DNA from: Clostridia bacterium | GTDB lineage: Bacteria; Bacillota; Clostridia; UMGS1883 | Direction: 5' to 3' | DNA: 32,537 bases | Assembly (NCBI GenBank): GCA_017414645.1 | Contig: JAFQLL010000063.1 | Location: forward strand, 1-32,537 | Shown here: in pieces, positions 1,710 through 5,353 of the stretch | How positions within the stretch are numbered: position 1 is the stretch's first letter | How the letters are laid out: each line of letters begins with the position of its first letter | Translations under genes and position numbers: made by a program | The notes under the pieces: model-generated | The model's input: the letters and a program-made list of their open reading frames with translations, nothing else | Database searches by the model: none | Told to the model about the DNA's origin: nothing

Positions 1710-2198
1710 ATGAACGTAAAAGGTAATGTTTTTAAATATGGCGATAACGTTGATACAGACGTTATCATTCCTGCAAGATATCTGAACACAAGTGCACCTA
1801 AGGAGCTTGCAGCACACTGCATGGAGGATATCGACAAGAGCTTTGTAACAAAAGTAACAGCAGGCGATATCATGATAGGCGGTTGGAATTTTGGCTGCGG
1901 TTCATCCCGTGAGCACGCACCCATTGCAATTAAAGCAAGCGGTATTGACCTTATCATTGCAAAGAGCTTTGCCCGCATCTTCTATCGTAACTCCATTAAT
2001 ATCGGTCTTCCCATTCTTGAAAGCGAGGAATGTGTTAACGATGCTGAAGCCGGAGATGTAATTTCTGCCGATTTGTCCAAGGGCATTATCCGTAACGAAA
2101 CAAAGGGCAAGGAATACACAACAACACCCTTCCCCGAATTTATTCAGGAAATTATAAACTGTGGCGGTCTTGTTGGCTACGCACAGCAGAAGCTGTAA
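1710..2198 (+). CDS. leuD: 3-isopropylmalate dehydratase small subunit
   Basis: This is the swivelling-domain partner of LeuC, completing the isopropylmalate isomerase active site. At 162 residues it matches the short LeuD type that pairs with short LeuC. Diagnostic stretches are [15 protein letters not shown] near residue 10, [15 protein letters not shown] around residues 52-66, and [18 protein letters not shown] just after. An AGGAGG site (1696-1701) precedes the ATG. A hairpin array begins only 2 bases after the stop codon and separates leuD from leuB. Confidence 0.95.
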
Positions 2199-2200
2199 AA

Positions 2201-2414
2201 TGAATGAAATGCCTACGGCATGAAATGTGCTTTTGGCACATGAAATGGCGATGCCATGAAATGCACTGCGTGCATTATGGTGGATTTGCCTTGCAAATCT
2301 TTTAATAATATAAAATGAAAAACCTTTGGTTTTTCTACCTGAATGAACCGTGGGTTCATATCATGGAGCAAAGCTCCATATCATTCATCATGCACATTGT
2401 GCATTTCATTCAGG
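2201..2414. repeat. Array of nine consecutive small hairpins enclosed by a 12-bp inverted repeat
   Basis: The leuD-leuB gap holds nine short perfect palindromes in a row: stem arms of 5-8 bases and loops of three bases, except the second, which has five. Positions (arm-loop-arm): 2209-2221, 2225-2241, 2245-2257, 2261-2275, 2283-2299, 2317-2335, 2343-2359, 2363-2379 and 2390-2404. The first four are separated from each other by exactly GAA. Arm sequences differ between units (ATGCC, ATGTGC, ATGGC, ATGCAC, GATTTGC, GAAAAACC, ATGAACC, ATGGAGC, ATGCAC), so this is not a simple sequence repeat. The whole block is bounded by TGAATGAAATGC (2201-2212) and its exact reverse complement (2401-2412). CCTGAATGA (2338-2346) can pair alternatively with TCATTCAGG (2406-2414). 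It has no T-run and no coding potential, and its function is unknown. Confidence 0.85.
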
Positions 2415-2451: not shown

Positions 2452-3510
2452 ATGATTAAGAATATAGCAGTTATTCCCGGTGACGGTATCGGTCCCGAGG
2501 TTGTACGTGAAACAATAAAGGTTCTTGACAAGGTTGCCGAAAAGTTCGGTCACGAGTTCAAGTATGAATATCTTCTTGCAGGTGGTTGCTCTATTGATGA
2601 ATACGGCAAGCCTCTTACAGAAGAAACTCTCGAAAAGGCAAAGGCGAGTGACAGCGTGCTTTTAGGTGCAGTAGGCGGTCCTAAGTGGGAAAATATCCCC
2701 GGTATTCGTCCCGAACAGGCACTTTTGGGTCTTCGCGGCGGTCTTAACCTTTATGCAAACCTCCGCCCTGCAGTAATGTATAAGGAATTAAGCGAAGCTT
2801 CTCCCTTAAAGAGCGAAATTATAGGCGACGGTATCGACATTATGATTGTTCGTGAACTTACAGGCGGTATTTATTTTGGTGAAAGCGGCAGAAACGAAGC
2901 TGGCGATTGGGCATACGACACAGAAAGCTACTCCAAGAATGAAGTTGAACGTCTTCTTATCCATGCCTTTGAAATTGCTATGAAGCGCAACAAGCACGTA
3001 ACAGTTGTTGACAAGGCTAATGTACTTGAATCCTCCCGTTTGTGGCGCGAGGTTACAAAGACTGTTGCTCCTCGTTATCCCGAGGTAATGGTTGACTATC
3101 TTTACGTTGACAACGCTTCCATGCAGCTTGTTCGTAACCCCCGTCAGTTTGACGTTATTGCAACAAGCAACATTTTTGGCGACATTTTATCCGACGAAGC
3201 AAGCCAGATTACAGGCTCCATCGGCATGCTTCCCTCTGCATCTTTAGGCGAGGGAACCTTTGGCATGTACGAGCCCGTGCATGGCTCCGCTCCCGACATT
3301 GCAGGCGAAAATAAGGCTAACCCTCTTGCAACAATTCTTTCCGGCGCTATGATGCTCCGCTATTCATTTGACATGCAGAAGGAAGCTGACTGCATTGAAA
3401 ACGCAGTTGCAAAGGTTCTCAGTGACGGTATCCGCACAGGTGATATTGCAGGCGGTATGGAATTTGTCGGCTGCAAGGAAATGGGCGATGCTGTAGTTGA
3501 AAGATTATGA
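2452..3510 (+). CDS. leuB: 3-isopropylmalate dehydrogenase
   Basis: This enzyme oxidatively decarboxylates 3-isopropylmalate to 2-oxoisocaproate using NAD+ and a divalent metal; it is the third enzyme of the leucine branch. The 352-residue protein shows the N-terminal [10 protein letters not shown] motif (about 8-17), NLYANLRP (about 103-110), and the signature [19 protein letters not shown] followed by [14 protein letters not shown]. The [14 protein letters not shown] stretch near residue 280 is the NAD-binding region of isopropylmalate dehydrogenases, and separates it from isocitrate and tartrate dehydrogenases. AGAGG lies 11 bases before the ATG. The gene is probably cotranscribed with leuCD through the hairpin array. 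Its TGA overlaps the yqeG start by 4 bases. Confidence 0.95.
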
Positions 3511-4016
3511 TGAAGAATTTTTATCCTGACCTTTATCTGGAAAATATAAGCTGTATCACTGCCTCCATGCTCAGTAAAATGGGTATGGAGGCTGTGGTGC
3601 TTGATGTGGACAATACCTTAGTGCCTCATAATGACCCCCATCCCACTAAAGAAGTTGAAGAATTTCTTGCGGATATGCGGAAAGGGAACATTAAAATATG
3701 CGTTGTTTCCAACAACACCTATGAGCGTGTAAAGCCCTTCTGCGACAAAATCGGCATTGAATATTTTGTGCATGATGCGTTGAAGCCCCGTGCCTATGGT
3801 TATCTGAAAGCAGCAGAAATTATGGGTGTTGAAGCAATTAAAACCGTAGGCATAGGTGACCAGATTTTTACCGACGTATGGGGCGGTAACAGAGCGGGCT
3901 GTTACACAATACTTTTAAAGCCCATCGACATTTCTACGGAAAACCCCTTCATAAAATTTAAAAGGCTCCTTGAAAAGCCTTTCTTAAAGAAAATCAAAAG
4001 AAGTGAAAACAAATGA
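3507..4016 (+). CDS. yqeG: YqeG family HAD-IIIA-type phosphatase
   Basis: This is a predicted cytoplasmic phosphatase of the HAD superfamily; the YqeG group has no firmly assigned substrate. HAD motif I is VLDVDNTL with D33 and D35, motif II is VVSNN near 67-70, the motif III lysine is in ALKPRAYG (K93), and motif IV is [12 protein letters not shown] (about 115-126). Length (169) fits the family. In Bacillus-type genomes yqeG lies directly upstream of yqeH and aroE; here it directly precedes aroE, with no yqeH between. Start and stop overlap leuB and aroE by 4 bases each (ATGA), implying tight translational coupling. A start three bases later at 3510 is equally possible. Confidence 0.88.
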
Positions 4017-5353
4017 ACATAACAGGAAAAACCATTCAGCTGGGGGTTATCGGTAACCCAATAAGTCACTCCATTTCTCCCCAGCTTCACAATACAATGG
4101 CAGAAAAAATGGGCCTTGATTACACATATTCTGCCTACAGAGTAAGGCGGGGTGAGGTGGCTAAAGCCCTTGATGGCATGCGCGCACTAAATATACGAGG
4201 TTTTAATGTGACAATACCTCATAAGGTAACGGCTCATGACCTTTGTGACGAGCTGGACCCCTTTGCAAAGAAGATGGGTGCATGTAACACCTTAGTGAAT
4301 AACGATGGCGTAATTAAGGGATATAATACCGATGGTCCGGGTTTTATACGCTCGCTTTTACATAAGGGTGTAAGCGTTAAAGACAAATTTGTGATTGTTC
4401 TGGGGGCAGGCGGTGCAGCGCAAGGCGTTTGCATGGCAATGGCTGATGCAGGCGCAAGAATGATAGGCATCATAAACCGCACCTATGAAAAGGCAGAAAA
4501 GCTGGCAGAGAGGATTAACAAATATTATCCCTCTGTGGCACACGCATGCAATGGCTTTGTAGATGCAGATATTGTTGTCAATACCACAAGCGTTGGCATG
4601 AATACCAATGAAATGCCTGCGGATGTGGATTTTGAAAGTCTCAAAAAGGAGACTGTAGTGTGTGATATTGTGTATTGCCCACGCGAGACGGCTTTTCTGA
4701 AAAAAGCCTCCGAGGCAGGTCTTAAAACCGTAGGCGGTATAGGCATGCTCATAAACCAGGCAGTTATCGCCTTTGAGCTTTTTACAAACACAAAGGTTGA
4801 CGAAACGGTGGTCGATTATTTATATCGCATGACGGAGCTTGAAAAATCCATTGTTTTAACAGGCTTTATGGGCACAGGCAAAACAAGCATAGGCAAAAGG
4901 CTGTGCTCTCTTACGGGTGCTCAGTTTATTGACACCGACAGCCTTATTGAAGAAAAAATGGGCATGAGCATTCCCGACATTTTTTCAAAATACGGTGAGA
5001 GCTGTTTCCGCGATGTGGAAAGCGAGGTTATAAAAAGCCTCGCAGGCTATAAGGGCGCTGTTATTTCTACGGGTGGCGGTGCGGTTTTAAGGCGTGAAAA
5101 TATTGATACCCTCAGAGAAAACGGTGCTGTGATTTTTTGCCTTAAGGCAGACATTGAGCGCGTTTTTAAAAACATTGGCACAAACACCGAGTCGCGCCCT
5201 CTTTTAAACGGAAAAACCATGGACGAGGCGCGTGCGCTTTTAGAGTCAAGATGCGAGGCCTATGCAAACTGTGACGAAGAAATTGACGTGACAGACTGCG
5301 AAAAGGAGCAGTCTGCCGATAAAATACTTGAGCTTTATATGGGCAGGGATTAA
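4013..5353 (+). CDS. aroE-aroK: Fused shikimate dehydrogenase / shikimate kinase (AroE-AroK)
   Basis: One 446-residue frame carries two consecutive shikimate pathway enzymes. Residues 1-275 are AroE: the substrate loop NPISHSISP (15-23), catalytic K71 in NVTIPHK, catalytic D107 in YNTDG, NADP motif GAGGAAQ (131-137) and NRT (155-157), ending with the family-typical GGIGMLINQA. Residues 278-446 are AroK: Walker A GFMGTGKTS (284-292), shikimate-binding DTDS (307-310), R333 in SCFRDVE and STGGG (352-356). The protein would reduce 3-dehydroshikimate and then phosphorylate shikimate. No stop or internal ribosome site is visible at the junction, and all key residues of both halves are present, so the fusion looks functional. 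It overlaps yqeG by 4 bases. Confidence 0.93.
   Translation: MNITGKTIQLGVIGNPISHSISPQLHNTMAEKMGLDYTYSAYRVRRGEVAKALDGMRALNIRGFNVTIPHKVTAHDLCDELDPFAKKMGACNTLVNNDGVIKGYNTDGPGFIRSLLHKGVSVKDKFVIVLGAGGAAQGVCMAMADAGARMIGIINRTYEKAEKLAERINKYYPSVAHACNGFVDADIVVNTTSVGMNTNEMPADVDFESLKKETVVCDIVYCPRETAFLKKASEAGLKTVGGIGMLINQAVIAFELFTNTKVDETVVDYLYRMTELEKSIVLTGFMGTGKTSIGKRLCSLTGAQFIDTDSLIEEKMGMSIPDIFSKYGESCFRDVESEVIKSLAGYKGAVISTGGGAVLRRENIDTLRENGAVIFCLKADIERVFKNIGTNTESRPLLNGKTMDEARALLESRCEAYANCDEEIDVTDCEKEQSADKILELYMGRD

Follow-up and report, generated by a model that had tools for sequence, protein, structure and literature searches.

A hairpin array in a clostridial leucine operon most likely is a gene-less member of an apparently mobile, S23p-linked family

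The S23p protein (PF05635), a four-helix bundle that assembles into a pentamer, is the intervening-sequence protein of 23S rRNA. Three other kinds of small element bear comparison: MITEs, which are short and gene-less, end in terminal inverted repeats and are related to a larger gene-bearing form; REP/BIME sequences, which are short palindromes dispersed in spacers; and group IIC introns, which insert behind intrinsic terminators in a fixed orientation. The intervening sequences (IVS) of 23S rRNA are described as small selfish elements in which complementary ends enclose an S23p gene; their origin and mobility were called unclear in 2016, and the Coxiella IVS is reported to have tandem heptamers before the S23p start (Warrier et al. 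2016, PMC4990558), the place also taken by the repeats at loci L248, L260, L285 and L287 of this study. CPR rRNA genes contain gene-bearing and gene-less inserts interspersed with one another, a few having an S23p-type protein (PMC11270868), 18 S23p-type genes are reported in cas loci (PMC3936711), and Avd, the accessory protein of diversity-generating retroelements, is given as a homologue of S23p (PMC10053308). The Gut-1 RNA was presented as probably a noncoding RNA, its only known source being human-gut environmental sequences, and the available part of that report makes no mention of dispersal, terminators or S23p (Weinberg et al. 2010, PMC2864571).

The DNA analysed here (the window) is a stretch of 32,537 nt from a Clostridia bacterium, in which a block of hairpins separates leuD from leuB; the same window holds, at 4013-5353, one reading frame with shikimate dehydrogenase and shikimate kinase domains. 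Like a 23S rRNA IVS, the block has complementary ends closing a stem, of 12 bp in the window, but it contains no S23p open reading frame or other gene and lies in the leuD-leuB protein operon, not in an rRNA gene, and the IVS descriptions in the available portions of PMC4990558 and PMC11270868 make no mention of hairpin arrays with a clade-specific linker. The block shares terminal inverted repeats and gene-less dispersal with MITEs, whereas its gene-bearing relative codes for S23p and it has no clear short target duplication. It differs from REP/BIME in forming a long ordered array that inverts at its centre, and no tie to Y1 genes was found. With Gut-1 it shares hairpins joined by a GUGAAAU-like linker, although the window scores below the Gut-1 gathering threshold of 50, and Gut-1 lies mostly behind T-runs while the window family rarely does. 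Most Gut-1 copies resemble group IIC introns in their orientation behind terminators, and no intron family matched at gathering scores in the 40 loci scanned. A search of titles and abstracts, which covered few subscription journals and no bioRxiv preprints, found no literature tying S23p or Gut-1 to dispersed hairpin arrays.

A hairpin scan of the window identified nine perfect, non-overlapping hairpins within the 214 nt of the block (at 2209-2404), with arms of 5 to 8 and a loop of 3 in eight of the nine (5 in the other), as the original prediction had described them. By comparison, 1,000 dinucleotide shuffles of the block averaged 1.15 hairpins, with 5 at most, and 636 stretches of equal length (214 nt) from elsewhere in the window averaged 0.76, with 4 at most. 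The predicted RNA fold of the block reached -79 kcal/mol (z -5.85 versus shuffles) and was closed by the 12-bp ends. The block is a real, structured element.

As summarized in Table 1, the hairpins are connected by a constant linker of 7 to 8 nt, ATGAWATG, which stands four times on the left as ATGAAATG, while the right half carries the inverse, CATWTCAT, three times. Thus, the block consists of two arrays facing each other, with the centre at about 2277-2335. The GAA spacer noted in the original prediction is present, but it is only the middle of this linker. The exact 12-bp inverted repeat claimed for the block ends is there, and 8 of its 12 closing base pairs are formed by the linker pairing with its own inverse, which is also the case in other copies. 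The element starts 5 nt past the leuD stop, where a T-run is absent. Reading of the block bore out the claim that it lacks a T-run and revealed no intrinsic terminator: the longest T stretch after a hairpin is TTTT at 2300-2303, behind hairpin 5, and further hairpins follow. The statement that no known motif is present held for riboswitches and T-boxes, neither of which matched in the Rfam scan, but not for Gut-1 (RF01706), which matches both block ends on opposite strands below its gathering score; the only further matches were two implausible weak ones (E up to 5). The first reading had missed this resemblance as well as the link to S23p described below.

Table 1. Positions of the element, its parts and its neighbours in the window
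Feature	Position	Strand	Basis or remark
Whole element, first linker ATGAAATG to last linker CATTTCAT	2204..2409	+	Ends from comparison with other copies; no match there in four congeners
Terminal inverted repeat 12 bp, left arm	2201..2212	+	Exact reverse complement of 2401-2412
Terminal inverted repeat 12 bp, right arm	2401..2412	+	Exact reverse complement of 2201-2212
Left linker 1, ATGAAATG	2204..2211	+	Repeat family D1
Left linker 2, ATGAAATG	2220..2227	+	Repeat search
Left linker 3, ATGAAATG	2240..2247	+	Repeat search
Left linker 4, ATGAAATG	2256..2263	+	Repeat search
Right linker 1, CATATCAT	2357..2364	+	Repeat family D8
Right linker 2, CATATCAT	2377..2384	+	Repeat family D8
Right linker 3, CATTTCAT	2402..2409	+	Repeat search
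Hairpin 1, arm 5, loop 3	2209..2221	+	Hairpin scan
Hairpin 2, arm 6, loop 5	2225..2241	+	Hairpin scan
Hairpin 3, arm 5, loop 3	2245..2257	+	Hairpin scan
Hairpin 4, arm 7, loop 3	2260..2276	+	Hairpin scan
Hairpin 5 (central), arm 7, loop 3	2283..2299	+	Hairpin scan
Hairpin 6, arm 8, loop 3	2317..2335	+	Hairpin scan; covarying in 28 copies
Hairpin 7, arm 7, loop 3	2343..2359	+	Hairpin scan; covarying
Hairpin 8, arm 7, loop 3	2363..2379	+	Hairpin scan; covarying
Hairpin 9, arm 6, loop 3	2390..2404	+	Hairpin scan
Position of the S23p gene in copy L092 (G001)	2307..2309	+	BLASTN of window versus L092
Gut-1 match below threshold, 38.9 bits (gathering 50)	2193..2251	+	Rfam
Gut-1 match below threshold, 28.9 bits	2353..2411	-	Rfam
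leuD, host gene before insertion	1710..2198	+	PF00694
leuB, host gene after insertion	2452..3510	+	PF00180

A search of the window's own genome (G000, an assembly 89% complete) with the block returned 19 matches, which were merged into 14 places, and matches were also found in the four congeners examined (G001-G004); relatives with the same hairpin layout exist, and at E 0.001 there was none in 36 other genomes, the genomes being mostly incomplete metagenome bins. The leuD-leuB gap, measured between aligned ends, is 17, 79, 163 and 166 nt in the four congeners versus 248 nt in the window, and all four lack a match to the element there. On reading, the gap held no array in three congeners and in the goat-rectum MAG RGIG3131, in which it is the same as that of G003. 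A gain of the element in the window's lineage is the parsimonious reading, and the dispersed copies together with the absence from this gap in the congeners support the non-autonomous mobile element proposed in the original prediction. There is no clear target-site duplication at leuD-leuB, where the congener flanks are much diverged. The long matches of the window copy inside G000 are 74 to 80% identical and thus give no sign of recent movement of the window subfamily.

The 33 copies of the window family sit at many different places, and a leu-specific role of the block, such as the RNA processing element between leuCD and leuB that the original prediction had listed among its candidates, is therefore unlikely. 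Relative to the surrounding open reading frames, 17 copies lie between genes co-directional with the element, 9 between genes co-directional against it and 6 between convergent or divergent genes, while for 1 copy one neighbour is unknown. Twelve copies overlap a mechanically called ORF by >40 nt, one such ORF being an S23p gene; none lies near a tRNA gene and two lie behind a T-run. A hairpin (arm of at least 5) directly upstream was seen in 7 of 29 copies, the four with unsure ends (L025, L027, L028 and L041) being left out, versus 8.2% of random positions, and as this excess is only modest, an upstream hairpin was rejected as the target of the window family. Two copies (L022, ~1919-2264, and L023, ~4567-5028) share an extra insert of ~100 nt with CCCCC/GGGGG hairpins near the centre, and a TPP riboswitch (L050:1328-1428) lies close to a copy in G004.

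The original prediction held that pairing rather than arm sequence is kept. Hairpins 6 to 8 were aligned over 28 copies (27 distinct), obtained as 29 pattern-found sequences minus one from a left array, and 97.6% of the cells were paired versus 92.4% after shuffling, where the search pattern specified linker and flank letters that also make the outer pairs of hairpins 7 and 8. Double changes occurred in 8 of 22 pairs (3.2 expected), with 26 doubly changed cells versus 5.1, and pairing fell to 27 to 55% when the partners were displaced by one to three columns. These results indicated that the arms change while pairing stays, so that the claim is borne out for these three hairpins. None of the outcomes that the original prediction had named as refuting it was observed, given the relatives with the layout, the covariation and the excess of hairpins over shuffles.

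The family includes copies with a gene. In the copy L036/L097 of G002, an S23p open reading frame lies between the two halves of the element, and in L092 of G001 an S23p gene likewise lies between the halves, at a place orthologous to that of L097; both precede the same following gene. BLASTN aligned window 2255-2306 with L092:1424-1475 and window 2310-2385 with L092:1840-1914, the S23p gene match lying at 1501-1812, so that the gene occupies the place of 3 nt in the window; in L097 it occupies that of 25 window bases. As the two copies stand at one orthologous place, the gene link of the window family rests on one insertion in two species. The stretch ATGGTGGATTTG at 2277-2288, near hairpin 5, is similar to the beginning of the L097 S23p frame, ATGGTAGATTTG, a likeness that is suggestive only. 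No gene-bearing copy of the window family was found in G000, whose three S23p genes fall elsewhere in the S23p tree. PF05635 gave 35 matches in 14 of 28 genomes, and in a set of 196 genomes of the class it matched in 64; an Rfam scan of 20 S23p loci detected no rRNA.

We found that the Gut-1 resemblance extends to the linker, since the four linkers of the window at 2204-2263 fit the (G/A)UGAAAU that joins the Gut-1 hairpins. Over 61 genomes, among the matches listed, Gut-1 matched at E 0.001 in 21 and over the cut-off in 13; E. coli, one of 14 control genomes, gave a match below the cut-off. Among the 146 matches listed in scope, all 14 inverted pairs stood in + then - order, which indicated that such Gut-1 copies are two halves of a window-like element, and high-scoring copies are often the left half of a two-sided array. 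As to their sites, 22 of 25 over-cut-off Gut-1 loci (25 of 49 listed) had TTTT at most 8 nt before the start, against a background of 6.4 to 6.5%, and 18 of the 25 also had a perfect stem just before it, in the manner of an intrinsic terminator (background 2.1%). The window element, which begins without a T-run, departs from this typical start. Eleven of the 25 loci follow a tRNA or tmRNA gene at a distance of no more than 300 nt, always on its strand, compared with 1 of 1,580 random positions of other loci even at a 600-nt limit. As the tRNA terminators differ between congeners, the hairpin that precedes Gut-1 is possibly part of the element.

Linker repeats are found around S23p genes in general. 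In 21 of 33 S23p loci of the 28-genome set and in 28 of 66 of the class set, a 7-mer together with its inverse was found five or more times around the gene, the other 38 of the 66 staying below five; at the same threshold, shuffles gave 2.0% and 1.3%, and distant stretches of the loci 0/33 and 3/66. Loci with <200 nt upstream were left out (2 of 35 and 2 of 68), and the 68 class-level loci are a subset of the class PF05635 matches, taken mostly in rank order. A strict array detector (at least three chained hairpins, arm at least 5) was positive at 14 of 35 S23p loci versus 2 of 35 distant stretches, and in the class set at 12 of 68 versus 1 in distant stretches and 1.4 expected by shuffling; its background in 900-nt blocks was 13/517 in leu loci and 3/49 in Y1 loci. 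The linker count was made the main test because the strict detector misses many arrays visible by eye. In the loci read by eye, hairpins stand between the linkers and the right-array linker is inverted, and the linkers read include AGCTAAAT, GTGAAAT, ATGAAAT, AGTGAAGT, TCGATAT, ATGAATT and ATGATAT, among others. Weak PF05635 matches at L104, L110 and L205 lie at most 0.6 kb from reverse transcriptase genes, with direct repeats of 20 to 26 nt around them; L104 also matches bAvd, both matches being below the curated cut-offs. These three are likely diversity-generating retroelements and, unlike the S23p arrays, stay below five linkers.

The linkers were then placed on a tree of 99 S23p proteins (127 columns, with 22 of 96 inner branches drawn open). 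A first test comprised 37 rows in 10 groups and gave 11 changes; the label AAAATCG (L107 and L269), which is a doubled terminator, and ATTATTC, a loose group, were removed before the retest. With 32 rows and 8 linkers, 9 changes were counted (minimum 7), whereas 500 shuffles gave a mean of 21.7 and a minimum of 17, and the host genome used as label needed 27 changes. At the level of sequence comparison, this test shows that the linkers as a set track the S23p tree and that most appear to mark one S23p clade each, several of them across host families. Two or three linkers occur together in eight genomes, and the 21 S23p proteins of an outer clade have no linker in common. The window's own label, ATATCAT, does worst in this test: its 4 rows fall at 3 places of the tree, a count that shuffling equalled in 55 of 500 cases. 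Of these rows only L092 and L097 group in one clade (the ATGATATG clade), and as L086, another row of this label, reads GTGRTAT by eye, the label may lump two linkers. This linker/S23p pattern would be compatible with the protein-binding array that the original prediction had also considered.

The AGCTAAAT type was present in six sampled genomes within one S23p clade (which includes L085), and was also seen in a Ruminococcus MAG from sheep. One such unit, array plus gene, occurs at two places of one genome with 98% identity over 636 nt, no further similarity being found, and a genome of another family has a copy 93.6% identical to it over 652 nt. The genes after S23p units differ among units. 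At one tRNA-Leu site, G000 has no element, G001 a two-sided Gut-1-type array, and G003 and G004 each a left array; in G002 the site holds an S23p unit flanked on both sides by a 33-nt terminator stretch. At L231 and L096, the S23p unit and the small gene following it are similar over ~1.25 kb (80%) across two families; the small gene is possibly cargo.

The arrays might instead be dispersed binding sites through which S23p regulates itself and scattered host transcripts, without any mobility. Such a scheme agrees with the 12 of the 146 listed Gut-1 matches that have an S23p gene no more than 600 nt away (9 genes), every one of them upstream of it and 10 on the same strand, and with the position of 26 of the 32 gene-less copies with both neighbours called between co-directional genes. 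It does not agree with the reversed orientation of 9 of these 32 to both neighbours, with the missing leuD-leuB copy in four congeners, with the differing genes behind S23p units or with whole array-plus-gene units that recur near-identically at other sites and in another family. We consider a purely regulatory role unlikely.

A further alternative is that the block is a classical MITE, mobilised by a DDE or tyrosine transposase/recombinase, with S23p as a passenger. Terminal inverted repeats, dispersal and gene-less copies all fit, and so do the insertion sites, given that tRNA and tmRNA genes are a favoured place of site-specific integrases: 27 of 103 S23p genes have such a gene at most 600 nt upstream, always on the same strand, compared with 3 of 103 downstream, one being counted in both sets, and besides the 33-nt case doubled terminators of 46 and 55 nt surround two further S23p units. 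Direct repeats of at least 14 nt were found around 9 of 99 S23p genes versus 0 of 85 controls; three of the nine are terminators, three the retroelement-like loci L104, L110 and L205, one an array (L100), and L202 and L270 are unexplained. The units at L285 (S23p at ~1501-1806), L287 and, by reading, L280 begin close behind tRNA genes, and at L285 the tRNA 3' end and array start are repeated downstream of the S23p gene; at L083 and L218 S23p genes adjoin tmRNA genes, the L083 unit beginning exactly at the tmRNA 3' end. Against a passenger role, however, the linkers as a set track S23p itself, the two gene-bearing copies hold S23p alone between their halves, with no transposase there (the genome-wide transposase search was for Y1), and the outer flanking bases vary among copies, so that comparison yields no fixed terminal sequence beyond the linker. 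We therefore regard this explanation, too, as improbable.

That the hairpins arose by template switching in tandem linker repeats and have no function is very unlikely. Nearly hairpin-free repeats of 7 to 8 nt (GCAGAAT, ATTAAGA and AATGAATAGTG) do stand beside the S23p genes at L248, L260, L285 and L287, and some loci with at least five linkers (L248 and L260) are plain tandem heptamers rather than hairpin arrays, and hairpin arms differ between copies; yet the length of the arms, the 3-nt loops and the linker are preserved as the arms change in step, and the layout flips at the centre. Spread of REP/BIME-like hairpins by RAYT-type Y1 transposases is extremely improbable: Y1 frames of 250 to 305 aa do occur in six Gut-1-matching genomes (G000, G001, G008, G010, G014 and G023; shorter ones in G003), but G002 and G012, although rich in Gut-1 matches, gave no Y1 match, and the readable Y1 flanks carry other repeats, mostly GGGGAC...GTCCCC hairpins, with no linker hairpins in the parts read (L070, L071, L079, L080 and L081; the stretches at L072, L073 and L074 miss one or both gene ends), so that a RAYT/REP mover was rejected. 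RAYT-size Y1 transposases stand beside GGGGAC...GTCCCC hairpins at L070, L071, L079 and L081, in genomes of the same genus and family.

The block most likely is an apparently mobile, gene-less member of the S23p-linked family, and we assign a probability of roughly 0.7 to the reading that it is a MITE-like copy, lacking the gene, of a mobile element which in its full form bears S23p. Such an element could work as follows. The array would be transcribed with its host gene, and the short hairpins would hold the 7- to 8-nt linkers exposed in register; an S23p pentamer of the matching clade would recognise the linkers, as suggested by the association of linker and S23p clade, and form a complex that is copied to new sites, while a full copy may supply S23p in trans and so spread gene-less copies. 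The working form may be a transcript or single-stranded DNA, which is suggested by the strand-true sites behind terminators and tRNA genes, by S23p in rRNA genes and by pairing kept without sequence. The leu-operon copy would be tolerated because it lies between a stop codon and the next start, and read-through would continue across it as it has no terminator-like T-run. A reverse transcriptase acting in trans was rejected as a general candidate, PF00078 (RVT_1) being present in 7 of 14 carrier genomes and without a match in G003, G012, G014, G016, G018, G023 and G028, and no transposase was seen between the halves of the gene-bearing copies.

More tentatively, and at somewhat short of even odds, S23p elements may be a mobile-element class of their own, a selfish RNA or RNP in which a pentamer without a known catalytic fold reads a clade-specific linker of 7 to 8 nt, inserts into transcripts or downstream of them (terminators, tRNA, tmRNA and rRNA genes and operon spacers) and leaves gene-less arrays. 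The 23S rRNA IVS and Gut-1 would then be two faces of one class.

The sequences compared here tie Gut-1 and the S23p IVS to dispersed elements that occur both with and without a gene. Gut-1 had been listed without host or role, according to the part of the original description available (Weinberg et al. 2010, PMC2864571). The elements have a readable grammar, in which the linker inverts at the centre, the hairpins covary and mostly one linker goes with each S23p clade. As carriers, empty sites and intact S23p genes are named, the function of S23p and the movement of the inserts become a binding test with match and mismatch controls built in, and the spread of S23p-type inserts in rRNA genes gains a concrete handle.
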